A stretch of DNA of 64,000 nt from positions 1,984,001-2,048,000 of the forward strand of contig NZ_CP134146.1 of assembly GCF_031583575.1 (NCBI RefSeq). Direction: 5' to 3'. This DNA comes from Thalassotalea nanhaiensis. GTDB taxonomy: Bacteria; Pseudomonadota; Gammaproteobacteria; Enterobacterales; Alteromonadaceae. Each line of letters begins with the position of its first letter. Position 1 is the first letter of the stretch. The position numbers were made by a program, and so were the translations under genes. Shown here piece after piece: positions 36,384 to 58,392 of the stretch. The notes under the pieces are model-generated. The model saw only the letters and a program-made list of their open reading frames with translations, was not told the DNA's origin and searched no databases.

Positions 36384-37826
36384 TTATTTTTTATCGTAAC
36401 CTTTGAACTCTTCACCCGGTTGAATGTTTCGATACACTGCCATGCTCTTTTTAAGATCAACAATCTTCTTCATTATTGGCTCCATTACCCAGCCGTGTAC
36501 ATAGCCCTGATTTCCCCATAACTCATAAGCTTCTTTGGGATCATTTTTAATGTCAAAAAGTTGTGGGAAGGTAAATTTAGTTACCGCCACTGAATGAGTT
36601 GATTCTGTTGCCATAAAATGCATTTTCATATTACGCCACTTGATGGCAAACAAATCATCACCAACAAAAACAATAAAATGATCTCGATTAGATGTCTCTT
36701 GTTTGCCAAGGAAAAAGTCCTTTTGATTTACGCCGTCAATAGGACGATCTGTAGGTACCAGTTTATCTGCACCAGCAAAACTGGCAATAGTGGTGTACAT
36801 ATCAATATCACCTACGATTTCATCTGATACACGACCAGCCTTAATTTTATTTGGGTAGCGGATCATTGCTGGAGTCCGTAATCCGCCTTCGTAGGCGGTA
36901 CTCAATCCACCACGCCAAGGGCCATTTGAACCACCTCCACCGTCTTCACCGGCAGCTAGAGCACCTGTTTGTGGGAAATTTCCTGCACCATTGTCTCCGG
37001 TAAGAATAACCACTGTATTATCAGCAATGCCTGCATCATCTATCGCTTTTAAAACTTGACCTATATTGTGATCAACTTCCATTTGTGTATCAGCATAAAT
37101 GCCGGCTTTAGAGGCGTTTTTAAAGTCTGGGTGCACAGTAAAAGGAGGATGAAAATGAGTAAAAGCAATGTAGCTATAAAAAGGTTTGCCAGTTTTAGCT
37201 TGCTTTTTAATATTTGCTATCGCTTTTTCGGTTATCTCACTATCTAAGGTTATTTTTGCAGGAATATCGAATTTTCTAACCTTTGTCGCATCCTTACCTT
37301 TTACGCCCTCATAAATATAAGGGGTAGTAGCAACAGTCGGATCCCATTGTGGTGTTGCTGTATAGCCTGAAGCATTGGTGCCTTCTTGCGTTCCCCAAAA
37401 GTAATCATACCCCTGATAATTAGGAAGCTTTTTAATGCTTGCACCAACATGCCATTTGCCAAACAGTGTTGTGTGATAACCTGCATCAGAAAGAAGTTCG
37501 GGTAAGGTATACTCCCAATAGGCTAAACCATCAGGCTCTCCAGGGGCTGGTACTTTTTGATTACCGCTACGAATTGGTAGCCTACCAGTGTGTAACGCGG
37601 AACGAGTAGGGGTGCATTGGTTTTGAACATTAAAGTTTGTAAGTCGTAACCCTTGGTTTGCAAATTTATCAATACTAGGTGTTTCAATGGTACTGCCTTG
37701 AATACTCAGGTCTCCCCATCCCCAGTTATCCACTAAAATATAGACAATATTTGGCTTATCTTCTGCAAAGGTATTAAAAGATAATACTAATACGGTACAA
37801 ACTAACAATCGCTTAAAAAAATTCAT
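36384..37826 (-). CDS. Secreted type I sulfatase
   Basis: A 480-residue sulfatase with a signal peptide (cleavage near NTFA-ED). The formylglycine motif is C71-T-P-T-R75 (QCTPTRSALHTGR), so it needs a maturase encoded elsewhere. The first metal site reads VDNWGWGD: the second of the usual two aspartates is N34; the second metal site TGDNGAGN and the FGKWHVG motif are conserved. It would remove sulfate esters from a carbohydrate or other ester outside the cytoplasm. The start is supported by AGGAAAC. It is divergent from the SDR operon. Confidence 0.9.
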   Translation of the reverse strand: MNFFKRLLVCTVLVLSFNTFAEDKPNIVYILVDNWGWGDLSIQGSTIETPSIDKFANQGLRLTNFNVQNQCTPTRSALHTGRLPIRSGNQKVPAPGEPDGLAYWEYTLPELLSDAGYHTTLFGKWHVGASIKKLPNYQGYDYFWGTQEGTNASGYTATPQWDPTVATTPYIYEGVKGKDATKVRKFDIPAKITLDSEITEKAIANIKKQAKTGKPFYSYIAFTHFHPPFTVHPDFKNASKAGIYADTQMEVDHNIGQVLKAIDDAGIADNTVVILTGDNGAGNFPQTGALAAGEDGGGGSNGPWRGGLSTAYEGGLRTPAMIRYPNKIKAGRVSDEIVGDIDMYTTIASFAGADKLVPTDRPIDGVNQKDFFLGKQETSNRDHFIVFVGDDLFAIKWRNMKMHFMATESTHSVAVTKFTFPQLFDIKNDPKEAYELWGNQGYVHGWVMEPIMKKIVDLKKSMAVYRNIQPGEEFKGYDKK

Positions 37827-48792: not shown

Positions 48793-49815
48793 TTACTTCT
48801 GTGCTTTAACAGCAGAGATGATTGGGTCTTCAGGAGCATCCATAACTTTTTGGTTCACACCATAATGACGACTGGTAAATGTAAAGTCAGTGCCTTTGGT
48901 ATCGATGTTATTTTTAGCATTGTCACCACAGTTAAATGAAACGGTAATAGTGCCATCGGCGTTCTTATCCCATCGATGAGAGTTAATATTGTTAACCCCT
49001 TCCATTAAGTATTTGCTGCTGTCATAAGCGGTAATTGAAGTGAAAAACGCGTTCTTAGGATCTTCAAAGGTTGATGTATAACAAATACTTGCTTTCATTT
49101 TTGGACTGTTTGCGTATTTATTGCCCACCATAGCTTCAGGGCTTGCGCCACCCCAGCCAGCCGCATTTTCTAAGTTCCACTGATGTAGGTCGGTAACTGT
49201 ATCTGAGGTGCGTGGAAAGGTATAAGTAAACTTACTCAAATTATTTACTTCTTCGGTGTACTTTTTAACCCACGCCTCTACTTCTTCGTAGTTGTATGGT
49301 TGCACTTGGTAGTCGACTGCATAGTTAAACTGGCTAACATCCACTTTTTCCAATTCTGCACGAGCTGCTTCAATGCCGTTTTCAGTACCTGAGCGATAAA
49401 TAAAGAATGCGTAGTCTGATTCAATCGGTAAATTATAGTTGCCATCTTCAACGACATAATGCTGGCCATGACCACGCTCAGTTACTACTTGCACAGCCAT
49501 GTAGTTATCTGTTTCAGGGATGTTAAAGGTTACTTTACCGTCTACCGCTTTTACAATTGCAATACCGTAAAGAGTATCATCGTTCATTTGTACAGTTGGT
49601 GCATCCTTTCCACGAGGCGGTAAGCCTTTCATTTTTGCAAATTGCTTGTTTGCCCCCAATGCTACCCAATTACGAAAATTACGAGCAGTCTCCGCATGAG
49701 TGAAATTATCTTCAGTCACAGTTAATGATTTTGCTTGCTCTGAGCTGGCGATTGGAGTGTAAATTGAGAAAACTGTAGTAATAGATAATGCAATAATAGA
49801 AGTCTTAAAGTTCAT
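48793..49815 (-). CDS. Secreted DUF1254/DUF1214-like protein
   Basis: A 340-residue protein with a signal peptide (MNFKTSIIALSITTVFSIYT, cleavage near SSEQA). The sequences MNDDTLYGIAIVKAVDGKVT, DNYMAVQVV and FFTSITAYDSSKYLMEGV plus DGTITVSFNC are the DUF1254/DUF1214 pattern. The family is periplasmic and widely distributed, without a settled reaction. A weak ribosome site AAGGT precedes the ATG. It is divergent from the LysR gene, which is a likely regulator. Confidence 0.78.
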   Translation of the reverse strand: MNFKTSIIALSITTVFSIYTPIASSEQAKSLTVTEDNFTHAETARNFRNWVALGANKQFAKMKGLPPRGKDAPTVQMNDDTLYGIAIVKAVDGKVTFNIPETDNYMAVQVVTERGHGQHYVVEDGNYNLPIESDYAFFIYRSGTENGIEAARAELEKVDVSQFNYAVDYQVQPYNYEEVEAWVKKYTEEVNNLSKFTYTFPRTSDTVTDLHQWNLENAAGWGGASPEAMVGNKYANSPKMKASICYTSTFEDPKNAFFTSITAYDSSKYLMEGVNNINSHRWDKNADGTITVSFNCGDNAKNNIDTKGTDFTFTSRHYGVNQKVMDAPEDPIISAVKAQK

Positions 49816-52339: not shown

Positions 52340-54709
52340 ATGAAAAAAACGCTAACAGCCGTATCTATCGCTCTTGCATTAAATTCAATTGGTGTTTACG
52401 CAGCAGTGAGTATAGAAAGCACTGCTACTCCGAATACAAGAAGCATTGAAGTAATTGAAGTAAAAGCCCAAAAAAGAACACAGAACGTGCAAGAAGTAGG
52501 TATTGCCGTATCCGCTTTCTCAGGGGATGACTTACGTTCTATGGGGATCACTCAATCAAATGAAATCGCTGCACAAGTACCCAATGTTACAATTGGCAAT
52601 AATGGCGGCTCTGATGGCTTACCTTTATTTTTTATCCGCGGTGTTGGTTTAACTGACTTTTCCAATGCGAACTCTGGGCCTATTGCCATTTATTCTAACG
52701 ATGTATATTTAAAAGCTCCTCGCAGCCAAAATTTTGCGTTATTTGATATTGAAAGTGTCGAAGTTTTAAAAGGGCCACAAGGAACATTATTCGGTCGAAA
52801 CACATCTGGTGGTGCCATTTTATTTAATTCAGTCAAACCTACCGATGATTTTGAAGGAAACATTAACATTGATGCTGGCAGTTTTGGCACCTATGCCGTA
52901 GAAGGGGGGATTGGGGGCGCATTAACCGAAAACTTAAATGCTCGCCTTGCTGCTAGGTACTCTGAGAGTGAAGGTCATCAAGATAATTTATTCACTGGCG
53001 ACACACAAGCTCAACCAAAAAAATGGGCTGCTCGTACAACGTTTATATATGAAGTCAGTGCAGACTTAAATATTACCGCAACCTTGGAAGCAGGTTCAAA
53101 AGATGGTGCTAACACCGCAGGTAAGTTTAGAGGAATAATTGACCCTGCCACAGGGGGGCTTTGTTCTCCAAAGCATTCGCAAACTTATACATGTATGAAT
53201 GCATTAGGAGAGTTTCCTGTATCTGACGATCCATTAGAAGTAGAAAACAACTTGGTAATGGACCACACCGAAGATTACTCTTCGGCAACATTACGCTTAG
53301 ATTGGGATTTAACCGACAATATCAGTTTTGTATCGATATCAAACTATATGGAGTTAGAAGCATTTCAAGCGGATGATACTGATGGTGGGTCAACTCAAAT
53401 ATTGGAGTTATTTTTAGATGAAGAGTCTGATCAAGTAACACAAGAGTTGCAGTTGTTAGGTCAATACGACGATAGCTCTTGGGTTTTAGGTATGTATTAC
53501 TTAAAGGATTCAGCTAAAGCAAATCATGATTATGCCATTTTACAAGAGTTTGCCCCTATATTTAACAGTATACCTACAGACACACTCGTTGATTATGTGC
53601 AAGGTGCTTTAGGTGGCTTGTATGGCTTAGCTGGTTCAACCGGTGTATTTAATGAAATATATGATCAGGAAGTGGAAAGTGTTTCAATTTTTGGTCAATA
53701 CGAAACTAAATTATCTGAAAAATGGAACTTAACCATTGGTGCCCGTTATACCGACGAAAAAACTACAATGTTATTAGACACAGTATTGGATGCTAATTTA
53801 TTACCTTTCGATGTAAATGGTGACGGTAGTGCTGATATGTTTTTGAGAGGAGCAATACCGGTAGTTCATTTAGATGATGAAGTGTCTGATTCAAATTTAT
53901 CGGGTAAAGTCGGTTTAAATTACCAAATTGATGAAAACGTCATGCTTTACTCTTCAGTGAGTACAGCATTTAAAGCACCAGGCTTTAATACCTCTGCAGT
54001 GTTTTCTAATAATGAAGCAAAATCGTTTGATTCAGAAGAAGTTACAGCCTATGAGTTTGGTGTTAAATCTGACTTGTTAGACAATCAACTAAGGGTAAAT
54101 GCCAGTATTTTTAGTTACGATTATGAGAATATGCAAGTGTATACTTCTCGCGTTACTCAAAGTGGAGTTCCTGCTCGTTTTATAGATAACGCCGCCGAAG
54201 GTGAGTACCAAGGTGCGGAATTAGAAGTTATCACTATGCTTACCGAAGATCTAAAATTCCAGTTTGGTTTTGGTTATATTGATGCTGAACTAAAAGACTT
54301 TTTAAGCGAAACATCAGTTGACCCAGTAACTGGAGTACCTGTAGTTGAAGATTTATCTGGCGCAACAACAGCATTTACGCCTGAGTATACTGCTAATGTT
54401 ATGCTTAACTATTACTGGGAAATGCAAGTTGGGCTCGTTGATTTCCAAGTAGATTATAGCTGGCAAGATGAGGTTTATCACAATACCGACAATACGCCTT
54501 ACAAAATGACCGATGCTTATGGGTTGTTAAATGCACGCGTTATGTGGACCAATGAAGAAACAGATTTAAGTCTTTCTGTTTGGGCAAAAAACATTACTGA
54601 TGAAGAATACGTTTCTTACACTTCTGGCTTGGAATCATTAGGGATCCTTAATGACTCTATTGGGTTGCCAAGAACAGTGGGTGTTTCTCTTTCTTATCAA
54701 TTTAATTAA
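52340..54709 (+). CDS. TonB-dependent outer-membrane receptor
   Basis: A 789-residue receptor with signal peptide (MKKTLTAVSIALALNSIGVY), TonB-box-like IEVIEVKAQ, a plug domain with LPLFFIRGVGLTDFSNANSG and VEVLKGPQGTLFGRNTSGGA, and a 22-strand barrel ending in an aromatic-rich strand (PRTVGVSLSYQFN). The pattern is that of the sugar/steroid-type receptors of marine Alteromonadales rather than classic siderophore receptors; the ligand is unknown. GAGGAAGTACTAGAA gives a good ribosome site. A terminator follows. Confidence 0.93.
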   Translation: MKKTLTAVSIALALNSIGVYAAVSIESTATPNTRSIEVIEVKAQKRTQNVQEVGIAVSAFSGDDLRSMGITQSNEIAAQVPNVTIGNNGGSDGLPLFFIRGVGLTDFSNANSGPIAIYSNDVYLKAPRSQNFALFDIESVEVLKGPQGTLFGRNTSGGAILFNSVKPTDDFEGNINIDAGSFGTYAVEGGIGGALTENLNARLAARYSESEGHQDNLFTGDTQAQPKKWAARTTFIYEVSADLNITATLEAGSKDGANTAGKFRGIIDPATGGLCSPKHSQTYTCMNALGEFPVSDDPLEVENNLVMDHTEDYSSATLRLDWDLTDNISFVSISNYMELEAFQADDTDGGSTQILELFLDEESDQVTQELQLLGQYDDSSWVLGMYYLKDSAKANHDYAILQEFAPIFNSIPTDTLVDYVQGALGGLYGLAGSTGVFNEIYDQEVESVSIFGQYETKLSEKWNLTIGARYTDEKTTMLLDTVLDANLLPFDVNGDGSADMFLRGAIPVVHLDDEVSDSNLSGKVGLNYQIDENVMLYSSVSTAFKAPGFNTSAVFSNNEAKSFDSEEVTAYEFGVKSDLLDNQLRVNASIFSYDYENMQVYTSRVTQSGVPARFIDNAAEGEYQGAELEVITMLTEDLKFQFGFGYIDAELKDFLSETSVDPVTGVPVVEDLSGATTAFTPEYTANVMLNYYWEMQVGLVDFQVDYSWQDEVYHNTDNTPYKMTDAYGLLNARVMWTNEETDLSLSVWAKNITDEEYVSYTSGLESLGILNDSIGLPRTVGVSLSYQFN

Positions 54710-54730
54710 CTGCAATAAAGGTTTAACTGA

Positions 54731-54758
54731 AAGTGCTGATATATAGTCAGCATTTTTT
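54731..54758 (+). terminator. Terminator after the TonB receptor
   Basis: Stem AAGTGCTGA / TCAGCATTT (one G-T pair) with a 7-nt loop running into TTTTT, 21 bases after the stop. Confidence 0.85.
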
Positions 54759-54901
54759 ATAAGTTCATTGCTTGACCTTATTTAGAGCTAATTTATCAAT
54801 TAAGCATAAATTTAGCCTATATACTTATTCAAGTTACATTATTTATCTTCAAACTTTATTAGATGCTTGGTTAAGTGACATATAGATTGTAAAGGAAGAG
54901 T

Positions 54902-56443
54902 ATGGAATACATAGATTTTATCAATAACGCTCGTGCAGAGTTTGCCCTCAGTATGATGGCGCACCATGTCTGGGTTCCTATTTATATAGGGGCAGTGCTC
55001 GTTGCTGCTATATTAGAAACATTGTATGTTCGTACTGGTGAAATTCAATATAAATCATCGGCAATATTTATTGGTCGCATGATGCTGCCTACGTTTCTAT
55101 TTATTGTTCTGTTGGGTATTGCTACGCCACCTTTCTCTGAGGACTGGGCACAGTGGTGGCGATATGTTCAAATCCTAGACCCAGAAGATCTAACTGGTCG
55201 TATTCCATCAACTTTGATCGTAGTAACGATAATTGCCTTTATCATCAACCAAACATGCTGGGATCGTATCCCACCAAAAGCACACTTAATTTCGTCTTGG
55301 ATTTTACCTATTATGCCCGCTTTGGCTGAATCTTCTGCTGTTGCAGTTAATGGTTGGATGCAAGCACCCCATGCAACTTCGGTGTTTGACTTAGATACAT
55401 TTGCTTATGTTAGAGAGAGCATGGCTGCATATTTCTTACAACCTATGACATCAATACGATTCTTGCACAATTTTTCTGCTACCTATCTAGTTGGAGTAGG
55501 GGCAATATTAAGTTTGTCTTGTTATTTTTTGTTAAAGAATAAACATCAGTTCTTTACCCAAAAGGCAATTTTAATCTCTTCGATAGTAGGTGTTGTGTTT
55601 ACCATTTCAGTTATCGCTGGAGGGGATGCTCAGGGACGTGCAGTACATGAAACACAACCGATGAAACTAGCATCCTTAGAAGCCTTGTGGGAAACAGAGG
55701 CAACTCCTCATTTTGTTCTGTTTGCTATTCCTGATGTAGAAAATATGAGAAATAAATATGAAATTGCCATTCCTCACATATTAGGATTTATGCTAAGCAG
55801 TAGTGAAGATCAACCTGTAAAAGGCATTAAACAGTTATTAATCGAGAATGAACGCAGAATTCGTAATGGCTTAGTCGCTTATCAAGCAATGAATTTGTTT
55901 GAACAAGACCGTTCAAACGAACAAGCTAAGCAATCGCTATTAGAAAACCATAAGGATCTTGGTTATGCCTACTTACTTCATAAATACACCGGTAACATTT
56001 TAACCGCAACTGATGCCGATATTAAAAATGCAGCCAAAGATACTATGGCAAATATAACGTTTTTGTTTTTCAGTTTTCGTATCATGGTTGTAGCAGGGGT
56101 CTTATTACTCATCATTTTCTCTTATTGGGCTGTGAGAAGTTATAAAAATGATTTAGCATCGGCTTCTGGGTTTATTATCAAAGCTTCAATATTCACACTA
56201 CCAATCGCTTTAACAGCATACCTACTAGGTTGGGCTCTTTCAGAAGTAGGTCGACAGCCATGGATTATTTATGAAGTTTTACCTACGATTTCTGGTGGTG
56301 GTTCATACAAAAATGGGGAGTCTGCTGGCTTTTCATTTAACGAGTTAATATTGACTACTATCGTAATATTTACTTCGTTAACGGCACTCATTGTTAGGCA
56401 AGTTCGCAAGGGACCACCGCATCTTGAACCTCGTGTCGATTAA
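54902..56443 (+). CDS. Stand-alone divergent cytochrome bd subunit I (CydA-like)
   Basis: A 513-residue CydA-like protein. Aligned without gaps to E. coli CydA between H19 and W118: H21 matches heme b595 ligand H19; H189 and M395 match heme b558 ligands H186 and M393; K255 and E260 match quinol residues K252 and E257; R393, W444, E448 and R451 match R391, W441, E445 and R448, and a long Q loop like E. coli's is present. But E99 and E107, of the proton path, correspond to I101 and T109, and the conserved GLTMEFQFGTNW block is absent. No cydB lies nearby. A 28-residue membrane microprotein follows 21 bases on. It may be a non-canonical bd-type protein. Confidence 0.82.
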   Translation: MEYIDFINNARAEFALSMMAHHVWVPIYIGAVLVAAILETLYVRTGEIQYKSSAIFIGRMMLPTFLFIVLLGIATPPFSEDWAQWWRYVQILDPEDLTGRIPSTLIVVTIIAFIINQTCWDRIPPKAHLISSWILPIMPALAESSAVAVNGWMQAPHATSVFDLDTFAYVRESMAAYFLQPMTSIRFLHNFSATYLVGVGAILSLSCYFLLKNKHQFFTQKAILISSIVGVVFTISVIAGGDAQGRAVHETQPMKLASLEALWETEATPHFVLFAIPDVENMRNKYEIAIPHILGFMLSSSEDQPVKGIKQLLIENERRIRNGLVAYQAMNLFEQDRSNEQAKQSLLENHKDLGYAYLLHKYTGNILTATDADIKNAAKDTMANITFLFFSFRIMVVAGVLLLIIFSYWAVRSYKNDLASASGFIIKASIFTLPIALTAYLLGWALSEVGRQPWIIYEVLPTISGGGSYKNGESAGFSFNELILTTIVIFTSLTALIVRQVRKGPPHLEPRVD

Positions 56444-56464
56444 TTATATTTGGAGATTTAAACC

Positions 56465-56551
56465 ATGATGTCATATGTTATTTTTTATTTACTTACAATT
56501 ATTGCAGTGTTTATTATCTTTAAAGTTGATGATAAACAACAGCGTAAGTAA
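56465..56551 (+). CDS. 28-residue single-TM microprotein (CydX-like position)
   Basis: Reads MMSYVIFYLLTIIAVFIIFK and a short hydrophilic tail ending in QRK. It is nearly all one membrane helix. It lies 21 bases after the CydA-like stop with a good GGAG site nine bases before the ATG. CydX, the small subunit of bd oxidases, also is a roughly 30-40-residue single-TM protein encoded downstream of cydB, but this sequence does not resemble E. coli CydX. A genuine subunit is an inference from position and length. Confidence 0.6.
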   Translation: MMSYVIFYLLTIIAVFIIFKVDDKQQRK

Positions 56552-56612
56552 ATAGTTCAGAAGCGAAGGTCTAATAAACCCTAAAGGACAATTTTAGGTG
56601 GCAATTTTAAAA

Positions 56613-56860
56613 TTATGTAGGTTTAATTTTTCGACGCTTATAGTTGATTAGGCTGACTATGGCAGCAATAACCCAGAAAATATCAATAACGAAACTCGCC
56701 AAATTAAAATTAATGCAAAGGCTGGTAAAAAGTAGGATAGCGCCCACTAAATTTGATAAATTATAATTCAACCCTTTTGGAACAATCTTATCCATTTGAA
56801 TTAAGTAAAAGCCAAAACAACCATTATTGTTCCAGCCATACCGACGATATCAGCCAACAT
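56613..56860 (-). pseudogene. CBU_0592-type membrane protein, interrupted by a frameshift
   Basis: The 3' part reads MDKIVPKGLNYNLSNLVGAI, LLFTSLCINFNLASFVIDIF, as in CBU_0592-type proteins. The 5' part begins at an ATG at 56860 with AGGGG upstream (MLADIVGMAGTIMVVLAF) but hits a stop in another frame. Adding one T at the run 56807-56810 would give the continuous AFYLIQMDKIV, as in the family. A loss of one T, a sequencing slip, or programmed slippage would all fit. Confidence 0.6.
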
Positions 56861-57192
56861 AAATCCCCTTAGATGAACCTTTTAATTGGTTCTTGGTCAT
56901 ATAAATCTCGGTTCCTTGAAGAAACAACTTATTATTCCAAAAAGTGAGGTTAACCTTTTAACAAACCGCACTATTTTAGGTGTTTAGGTATAATTAACAA
57001 GCAAGAAACTGTTCTGTATTGTTAACTGCAAATGTATTTAACGTTAACTTATTGAATTAGTTGCCAGAAACGGGTGGTTTTTAGTAACTAATTGTTAAAA
57101 ACAAACTAAAATTAATCCAAGTTTTGTTATTATTCGTGATACTTAACAATTAAGTGCATTCCCAATTTTATCTCTAACTACAATGGAGCGTT
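56861..57192. other. Upstream region of nhaA
   Basis: About 330 AT-rich bases between the frameshifted gene and nhaA. It must hold the nhaA promoter; no recognisable binding site, RNA gene or repeat was found in it. Confidence 0.5.
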
Positions 57193-58392
57193 ATGAACAA
57201 CCAAGATAATTTTATTAGCAGCTTTTTTAAACTTGAATCAGCCGGTGGCATCATATTGATGATGGCGGCAGTTCTTGCCATGATTTGTGCCAATTCTTCT
57301 TTAGATATTTATTACAACCTACTTTTAGATACTCCGGTTGAAGTTAGAGTAGGCCCTTTAGAAGTGGCTAAGCCCTTATTATTATGGATAAATGATGGCT
57401 TAATGGCGATATTCTTCTTTTTAGTGGGCTTAGAGCTTAAACGAGAATTAAAAGAAGGCGAACTCGCCGATAAACGAAATATTATACTGCCAGGCGTTGG
57501 GGCTATTGGTGGTATGTTAATTCCAGCACTTGTTTACGTGTACTTTAATTATGATGATCCTGATGCAATAAATGGTTGGGCCATTCCTGCTGCTACTGAT
57601 ATTGCTTTTGCGTTAGGTGTGTTAACGTTGCTTGGCTCTCGTGTGCCAACCTCGGTTAAAATATTTTTAACATCACTTGCTATTTTTGACGATATTGGTG
57701 CAATTATTATTATTGCCTGTTTCTATACTGACGATATTTCCACTACCGGTTTGATCATAGTTGCCTGTTGTTTGCCTATCTTGTATCTGTTAAATCGCAA
57801 TAAAGTTGAAGCACGAAGCTTATATATGGTTATAGGCGCAATTATGTGGGTTGCCATGCTCAAATCTGGTGTTCACGCTACGTTATCTGGGGTATTAGTT
57901 GCTTTATTCATCCCTATGCGCTCAAAAATAAACCCAGATTATTCACCGTTAAAAACCTTAGAGCATGATTTACATTCAGTGGTGGCCTTTATTGTGCTAC
58001 CAGTATTTGCCTTTGCCAATGCAGGGATAAGCTTAAAAGGTGTAGGGTTTGAAGATGTCATGCACAGTGTGCCAGTTGGTATTGCCTTAGGCTTACTCAT
58101 TGGTAAACAAATAGGGGTGTTTGGTTTTTGTTGGTTAGCAATCAAGCTTAACTTTACGCAACTGCCTAGTGGTATGAATTGGAAAACGCTCTACGGTACT
58201 GCCGCATTGTGTGGTATTGGTTTCACGATGAGCTTGTTTATCGGCTCTTTAACATTTGAAGCGAACGCAATGGTTAAGCTATTTGATGAACGTTTAGGTA
58301 TTATTGTTGGCTCTTTACTGTCAGGAATAATCGGATTCTTGGTGTTGAAGTATTCATTACCCAAAGAATCAAAAACTAACGAAAACCTATAG
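57193..58392 (+). CDS. nhaA: Na+/H+ antiporter NhaA
   Basis: A 399-residue inner-membrane antiporter exchanging Na+ (or Li+) for protons. The paired essential aspartates D166-D167 (IFDDIGAIII) match E. coli D163-D164; ATDIAFALGVL and LKRELKEGEL are also conserved, as is HATLSGVLVA with the pH-sensing histidine. TM count and length match the family. GGAGCGTT precedes the ATG. Monocistronic, with a strong terminator. Confidence 0.96.
   Translation: MNNQDNFISSFFKLESAGGIILMMAAVLAMICANSSLDIYYNLLLDTPVEVRVGPLEVAKPLLLWINDGLMAIFFFLVGLELKRELKEGELADKRNIILPGVGAIGGMLIPALVYVYFNYDDPDAINGWAIPAATDIAFALGVLTLLGSRVPTSVKIFLTSLAIFDDIGAIIIIACFYTDDISTTGLIIVACCLPILYLLNRNKVEARSLYMVIGAIMWVAMLKSGVHATLSGVLVALFIPMRSKINPDYSPLKTLEHDLHSVVAFIVLPVFAFANAGISLKGVGFEDVMHSVPVGIALGLLIGKQIGVFGFCWLAIKLNFTQLPSGMNWKTLYGTAALCGIGFTMSLFIGSLTFEANAMVKLFDERLGIIVGSLLSGIIGFLVLKYSLPKESKTNENL

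Follow-up and report, generated by a model that had tools for sequence, protein, structure and literature searches.

An orphan CydA of the long-Q-loop type in Thalassotalea nanhaiensis and three Vibrio genomes, with a probable redox role apart from cytochrome bd

Introduction

What can a CydA protein do when both its partner subunit and the acidic residues that would feed it protons are gone? Canonical bd oxidases combine CydA and CydB with the glutamates E99 and E107, both acids being present in 50 of the 50 canonical sequences compared here. The question is raised by a 64,000-nucleotide stretch of the genome of Thalassotalea nanhaiensis (contig NZ_CP134146.1; hereafter the window), where an earlier note, made by eye from the letters, had described a stand-alone CydA-like protein missing those two glutamates, with no cydB beside it and a microprotein gene following instead. 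Such a gene could be a decayed paralogue, or a member of the bd superfamily put to another use.

The published roles of the residues concerned set the frame for an answer (E. coli numbering, unless the window protein is named). PMC8585947 assigns H186 and M393 to heme b558, E445 to heme b595 and H19 to heme d. PMC6853902 names E99 as the axial ligand of heme d, reports that E99 and E74 variants lose this heme, describes contacts of CydX with TM1, TM5 and TM6 of CydA, and traces the oxygen channel and a water chain along CydB. For Mycobacterium tuberculosis, a solvent channel has been placed in a four-helix bundle built from TM2/3 of both subunits (PMC8413341). Lastly, PMC13189123 (2026) assigns primary proton donation to E107, counting K53, K57 and E74 among the residues on the CydA side, describes Y243 and R298 as forming the primary quinone site in an E. 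coli structure, and has K252 and E257 stabilising the Q-loop.

Results

A single CydA-like gene in a complete genome

The features discussed are collected in Table 1. The sole Pfam domain of the CydA-like protein is PF01654 (Cyt_bd_oxida_I), matched over profile positions 2–418 of 418 with an E-value of 6e-78, which settles the identity first proposed for this frame. Its closest solved relatives are the CydA subunits of E. coli bd-I and bd-II, and about a third of its residues are identical to E. coli CydA. The predicted structure has the bd fold (TM-score 0.88 to 7ose_A) and is uncertain at residues 71–100 (block means of 49–51, then 75 and 88), the stretch that leads into the predicted TM3 helix. 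Pfam finds no signalling domain attached to the protein, and its sequence contains neither a CxxCH motif nor a c-heme domain.

Table 1. Coordinates of the features discussed (window positions, or locus and position for Vibrio)
Feature	Position	Strand	Basis
CydA-like gene, long-Q-loop type, 513 aa	54902..56443	+	ORF and Pfam, alignment, tree, model
Codons H21 (Ec H19) and H22 (Ec F20)	54962..54967	+	alignment
Predicted TM3, residues 97–118, no acidic residue; would hold Ec E99 and E107	55190..55255	+	phmmer, MAFFT, model
Codon E143 (Ec A141)	55328..55330	+	alignment
Codon R246 (Ec Y243, primary quinone contact)	55637..55639	+	alignment and PMC13189123
Codon S300 (Ec R298, primary quinone contact)	55799..55801	+	alignment and PMC13189123
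28-aa single-TM microprotein gene	56465..56551	+	ORF; GGAG ahead of ATG; homologues at the corresponding position in 3 Vibrios
Window sulfatase	36384..37826	-	79% identical to the sulfatase beside orphan cydA in 2 of 3 Vibrios
Vibrio sulfatases beside orphan cydA, 79% identical to the window's	L048:10871-12346, L070:11266-12702
DUF4345 membrane protein genes, Vibrio	L047:7547-7951, L048:7559-7948, L070:8119-8508		Pfam on the L047 and L048 copies

The genome is a single contig of 4,311,067 bases (4.31 Mb), 99.99% complete. Profile searches of it returned one PF01654 match, namely the gene at 54902–56443, and none to CydB (PF02322), in a search that was positive in 10 of 14 control genomes. The reported lack of a cydB within 1 kb of the gene thus extends to the whole genome; no normal cydABX set was found elsewhere either, and the PF01654 search found no second CydA paralogue. 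We give next to no credence to an assembly artefact with a cydB lying just beyond a contig end: the gene sits well inside its one contig, and the orphan arrangement recurs in three Vibrio genomes. The genome also has four heme-copper oxidase family matches, among which there may be a NO reductase, so the cell has other oxidases at its disposal.

CydDC is required for the maturation of bd in E. coli (PMC10374445). Judged from its CydC half only, CydDC falls below the cut-off in T. nanhaiensis (best score 257.8 against 329.05 bits, with 56 of 68 first-look candidates scored); CydC exceeds the cut-off in none of the nine genomes of the genus tested, the source genome included, and in all three Vibrios. 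The genes found around the cydA-like gene code for regulators, a TonB receptor, an antiporter and sulfatases, not for respiratory functions. Scans of positions 54600–57250 gave six promoter-like sites against a shuffle mean of 10.4 and two terminator-like sites against 1.7, neither above chance, and comparison with PHROGs returned only families of unknown function.

Residues kept and lost

Four orphan copies, from the window and three Vibrio genomes, were compared with 50 canonical rows of the long-Q-loop type, after removal of the own-genome rows L001 and L002, the duplicates L048 and L061, and the fragments L058–L060, which the residue counts list under 'far' only and which were also left out of the tree. 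Canonical counts at R9–I35 are out of 44 because six canonical rows have no residue there.

All four copies keep R9, H19, H186, D239, Q249, K252, E257, R391, M393, W441, E445 and R448, as well as the GRQPW block. In the window protein, H21, H189, M395, K255, E260, E448 and R451 correspond to H19, H186, M393, K252, E257, E445 and R448, so the heme and Q-loop residues listed as kept in the earlier note are indeed in place in the alignment; its naming of H21 as the ligand of heme b595 has to be changed, H19 being now assigned to heme d (PMC8585947).

This pattern bears on whether the protein is an oxygen enzyme at all. It could instead be a redox or gas sensor, or a b558 electron relay serving another membrane system, a reading with which the retention of the b558 ligands and R391 in all four copies and the non-respiratory neighbourhood agree. 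We consider it unlikely, since E445 and H19, equally kept in 4/4, would be superfluous in a relay that used b558 only, and since no signalling domain is attached.

The losses are as uniform as the retentions: E74, G78, N80, E99, E107, S140, I144, Y243, R298 and K53 are missing from all four copies, with E74, E99, E107 and S140 each present in 50/50 comparison rows. Of these, E74 and E99 face heme d, and S140 is a neighbour of the proton donor E107. Isoleucine or methionine stands at K53, and arginine or lysine at K57. The conserved E74–N80 block had been described as gone, and indeed reads ATPPFSEDW in the window protein against TMEFQFGTNW. The residues opposite E99 and E107 are I101 and T109 in the ungapped alignment first used, T98 and V107 with phmmer, and V108 and N116 with MAFFT, none of them acidic. 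Whichever alignment is chosen, the loss stands, because the predicted helix 97–118 has no D or E at all, which also rules out equivalents of the two glutamates shifted within TM3. A conserved acidic DPED stretch (residues 93–96) lies just ahead of this helix. Both missing glutamates were therefore rightly noticed, but the change is wider than the pair, taking in E74, G78, N80, S140, I144 and K53 as well.

By this comparison, the changes are densest in TM2–TM3, the side that faces CydB in the solved enzymes: positions invariant in canonical rows are kept at 12 of 53 there against 71 of 147 elsewhere (Fisher p 0.001), a count of changed positions inflated by the gap-prone alignment of this region. 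Read against the published residue roles, the protein has lost most of the CydA half of the oxygen and proton apparatus, together with CydB, which carries the other half. The picture drawn earlier, of a CydB-less member of the bd superfamily whose active-site region has been rebuilt, is strengthened by this pattern of losses being shared with the Vibrio orthologues.

Residues gained

Some replacements are as constant as the losses. Next to H21, the window protein has H22 where E. coli has F20, and this histidine is found in 4/4 orphans against F or Y in the 44 comparison rows covering the site. A glutamate, E143, is likewise found in all four copies, adjoining the S140 position of the proton path, and may be a relocated acid that partly replaces those lost. 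At the quinone site, the statement that quinol residues are kept holds for K252 and E257 but fails for Y243 and R298, which have become R and S in all four orphans (canonical rows: Y in 48/50, R in 49/50). An arginine and a hydroxyl are still available in the R/S pair, which might restore quinone binding.

These gains are what one would look for if the protein were still a quinol:O2 oxidase reducing oxygen to water, its acids having moved from E99/E107 in TM3 to E143 in TM4, its quinone contacts from Y243/R298 to R246/S300, and a second copy of itself having replaced CydB. E143, R246 and S300 are the same in 4/4, the residues H19, H186, M393, E445, W441 and R448 and the long Q-loop are kept, and CydAA' is described as a member of the superfamily that does without CydB (PMC12342949, PMC10839748). 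We nevertheless regard a conserved oxidase as rather improbable, as K53, E107 and E74 of the CydA-side proton wire are gone and CydB with them, E107 is part of the E. coli proton path (PMC13189123), and CydC stays below the cut-off in the source genome.

Distribution, phylogeny and selection

Within the genus, a CydA-like match occurs in one of 15 genomes, that of the source, 13 of the 15 being at least 90% complete. In the order, 269 of 394 genomes have a match at E <= 1e-60; among the matches listed, one genome alone (G145) stands at 67% identity, the next best E-value is 2.5e-88 and the others lie at 30–36%. The source genome alone passes 1e-95 in overlapping samples of the family (395 genomes) and the class (369 genomes). 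G145 is a Vibrio, and in its genus an orthologue at E <= 1e-110 is present in 3 of 227 genomes (G145, G539 and G457). A contig scan with short peptide patterns returned 14 loci, two of them at 67% identity, in Vibrio rotiferianus CAIM 577 and in Vibrio splendidus MOR1. Both encode proteins already counted, those of G539 and G145, which leaves four distinct orphan sequences: one from the window and one each from G145, G539 and G457. The 617 plasmid records matched are all below 60% identity, and the six pattern matches on viral contigs include no relative. The combination of an orphan cydA, no cydB match on its contig and a microprotein is found again in three Vibrio genomes, and in none of the other 14 genomes of the genus.

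The Vibrio orthologues are 66–67% identical to the window protein. No cydB match lies on the contigs that carry them, normal cydB matches being on other contigs. G145 has, besides its orphan, two cydB matches (L068, L069), each beside a canonical cydA.

In a tree of 61 rows, restricted to long-Q-loop and short-Q-loop sequences, the four orphans group together with 100/100 support, next to the canonical long-Q-loop rows. The place of this clade relative to canonical CydA is not firm: its stem is very long and support for the canonical group is only 95/78, so it may be nested inside the long-Q-loop group.

Pairwise dN/dS among the three Vibrio orphans is 0.029, 0.029 and 0.053, and 328 of 513 columns are identical in all four copies; between the window and Vibrio, dS is saturated over the whole CydA-like gene. 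Judging from these values, the orphan is maintained by selection and not decayed. A horizontally acquired cydA that lost its cydB and is now decaying would explain why no CydA-like match occurs in the remaining 14 genomes of the genus, of which two are less than 90% complete. Such decay is very improbable, however, given the intact frame of 513 codons, the same losses in three Vibrio genomes, the dN/dS of 0.03–0.05 between these and the microprotein conserved alongside; the earlier preference for a functional protein over a decayed paralogue was well founded.

A microprotein downstream

The microprotein said to follow the gene is presumably the one at 56465–56551, whose homologues occupy the same place in three Vibrio genomes, 9 nt behind the cydA-like stop codon there and 21 nt in the window. 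In all four genomes it is 28–29 amino acids long, with one hydrophobic helix, a charged tail and a ribosome-binding-like sequence ahead of the gene. Local scores between the window and Vibrio forms are 52, 53 and 55; the highest score among 128 TM-like background ORFs is 32. A dN of 0.16–0.17 and a dS of 1.3–1.5 between the diverged Vibrio forms point, in so short a sequence, to a milder constraint than that on the cydA-like gene.

A 60-codon frame on the opposite strand (56613–56795) was considered as the microprotein and set aside in favour of 56465–56551. It encodes a membrane protein of the CBU_0592 family, matching profile positions 22–71 of 72 only, and may be 5'-truncated, since an in-frame stop lies upstream.

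Is the microprotein a CydX? According to PMC4325964, CydX accompanies CydA of the long-Q-loop type. The CydX profiles PF08173 and TIGR02106 match none of the four microproteins while both match E. coli CydX as a control, a miss that weighs little because the Pfam model, called too stringent in PMC4325964, fails on some working CydX proteins. The motif YxxWxxGx15E/D is partly present: the Y is kept, the W has become F, the G is absent and the acid comes 3–4 residues early. Scored against CydX, the Vibrio forms are equalled by 1, 1 and 6 of 125 background ORFs and the window form by 49 of 125; shuffle scores against E. coli CydX (z 3.0–4.8) are not specific, as any single-helix peptide tends to outscore its shuffles. 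Profile, motif and background scoring hence do not establish it as CydX. Going by its locus, the microprotein is CydX-like in place and size only, occupying the spot that CydX would have were cydB cut out, and it is the only candidate partner present at all four loci.

Neighbourhood in Vibrio and the sulfatase link

In the Vibrio genomes, a gene without Pfam match, a sulfatase and a radical-SAM/SPASM gene, sulfatase-maturase-like by its context, come first; on the other strand there follow a DUF4345 gene, the orphan cydA with its microprotein gene, and a LysR gene. Two genomes of the three then have a second sulfatase. The DUF4345 gene lies about 43–52 nt upstream of the orphan cydA in 3/3 Vibrios and has no homologue within the 64 kb of the window, and its product is a possible extra subunit in Vibrio.

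The window has its own sulfatase 17 kb from the orphan cydA. A relative at E <= 1e-130 occurs in 4 of 227 genomes of the genus Vibrio, all three orphan carriers included, one of which (G539) has a relative of 51% identity only; the remaining genome, G429, has one at 80% and no orphan cydA. This suggests shared transfer or shared physiology, and no more. A DUF1254 gene (48793–49815) sits between sulfatase and orphan cydA in the window, and in G429 (L082:8859-11633) the sulfatase adjoins a gene 27% identical to this DUF1254 protein. The three sulfatase matches at 79–80% (L076–L078) each have one TAG inside the matched stretch.

Discussion

The orphan CydA is kept, on the strength of its substitution pattern, by selection in a few marine Gammaproteobacteria. 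Because it is under selection and yet has neither CydB nor the proton-feeding acids, it probably does a different redox job from cytochrome bd. That it has another partner and performs another reaction, as the earlier note had proposed, we also infer. The explanation that we prefer, with a probability of about one half, is that it represents an offshoot of long-Q-loop CydA that would be independent of CydB, would contain b-type hemes only and would carry out non-canonical electron transfer without a proton wire.

The complex would consist of the orphan CydA and the microprotein, as a monomer or perhaps as a homodimer formed through the face once turned to CydB. The b558 and b595 sites would each hold a b-type heme, and the d site would either hold one too or stand empty. 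Electrons would come from quinol, or from another donor, through the rearranged quinone site in which Y/R has become R/S, and would be passed to a small oxidant such as O2, H2O2 or NO, or to another partner, without the normal electrogenic reduction of oxygen; the conserved E143 may stand in, in part, for the lost acids. Some observations pull against this b-heme, CydB-free account. With H19 kept, the d site could still hold a heme; E143 or DPED could act as acids, so that oxygen may still be reduced; and a distant partner may be encoded elsewhere in the genome. As for the donor, it may not be quinol, since Y243 and R298 are lost.

More tentatively, and still from genomic data, the orphans could stand for a functional class within the bd superfamily: a CydB-free, long-Q-loop CydA with a microprotein, rebuilt both where electrons enter and at the oxygen/proton end, acting as a b-heme oxidoreductase for quinol or another donor, not as a proton-motive oxygen reductase, and travelling with a sulfatase module. 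The orphan offers a natural test of which parts of CydA bind heme and which do the oxygen chemistry, and of whether CydB serves proton and oxygen access only. In genome surveys, the presence of cydA by itself should not count as a bd oxidase.

Comparison with known systems

No paper on such a CydA was found by title or abstract, and it may correspond to an unnamed clade in the classification of the superfamily. The closest comparison is with CydA of E. coli bd-I and bd-II (qOR1; 6rko, 7ose), with which the orphan shares the fold, H19, H186, M393, E445, R391, R448 and W441, the long Q-loop with K252 and E257, and a single-TM small protein encoded nearby. Unlike these enzymes, it has no CydB and has lost E74, E99, E107, S140, K53, Y243 and R298, its small protein is missed by the CydX profiles, and CydC is below the cut-off in the source genome. 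The microprotein resembles CydX, CydY and CydZ as a short single-TM protein encoded beside oxidase genes, but it follows cydA and not cydB, has no Pfam or NCBIfam CydX match and agrees with the motif in part.

Other members of the bd superfamily dispense with CydB. CydAA', reported in archaea and, as OR-N pairs, in Nitrospirota and Nitrospinota (PMC12342949, PMC10839748), is made of two CydA paralogues, against one CydA found in the genome here. The fusions of CydA to a c-type cytochrome in Deltaproteobacteria, as described in PMC5322542, are also CydA relatives without cydB; unlike them, the orphan has no c-heme domain or CxxCH, keeps the long Q-loop and belongs to another lineage. CydA relatives without cydB are thus already known, and the orphan differs from both the c-cytochrome fusions and CydAA' in the features tested.
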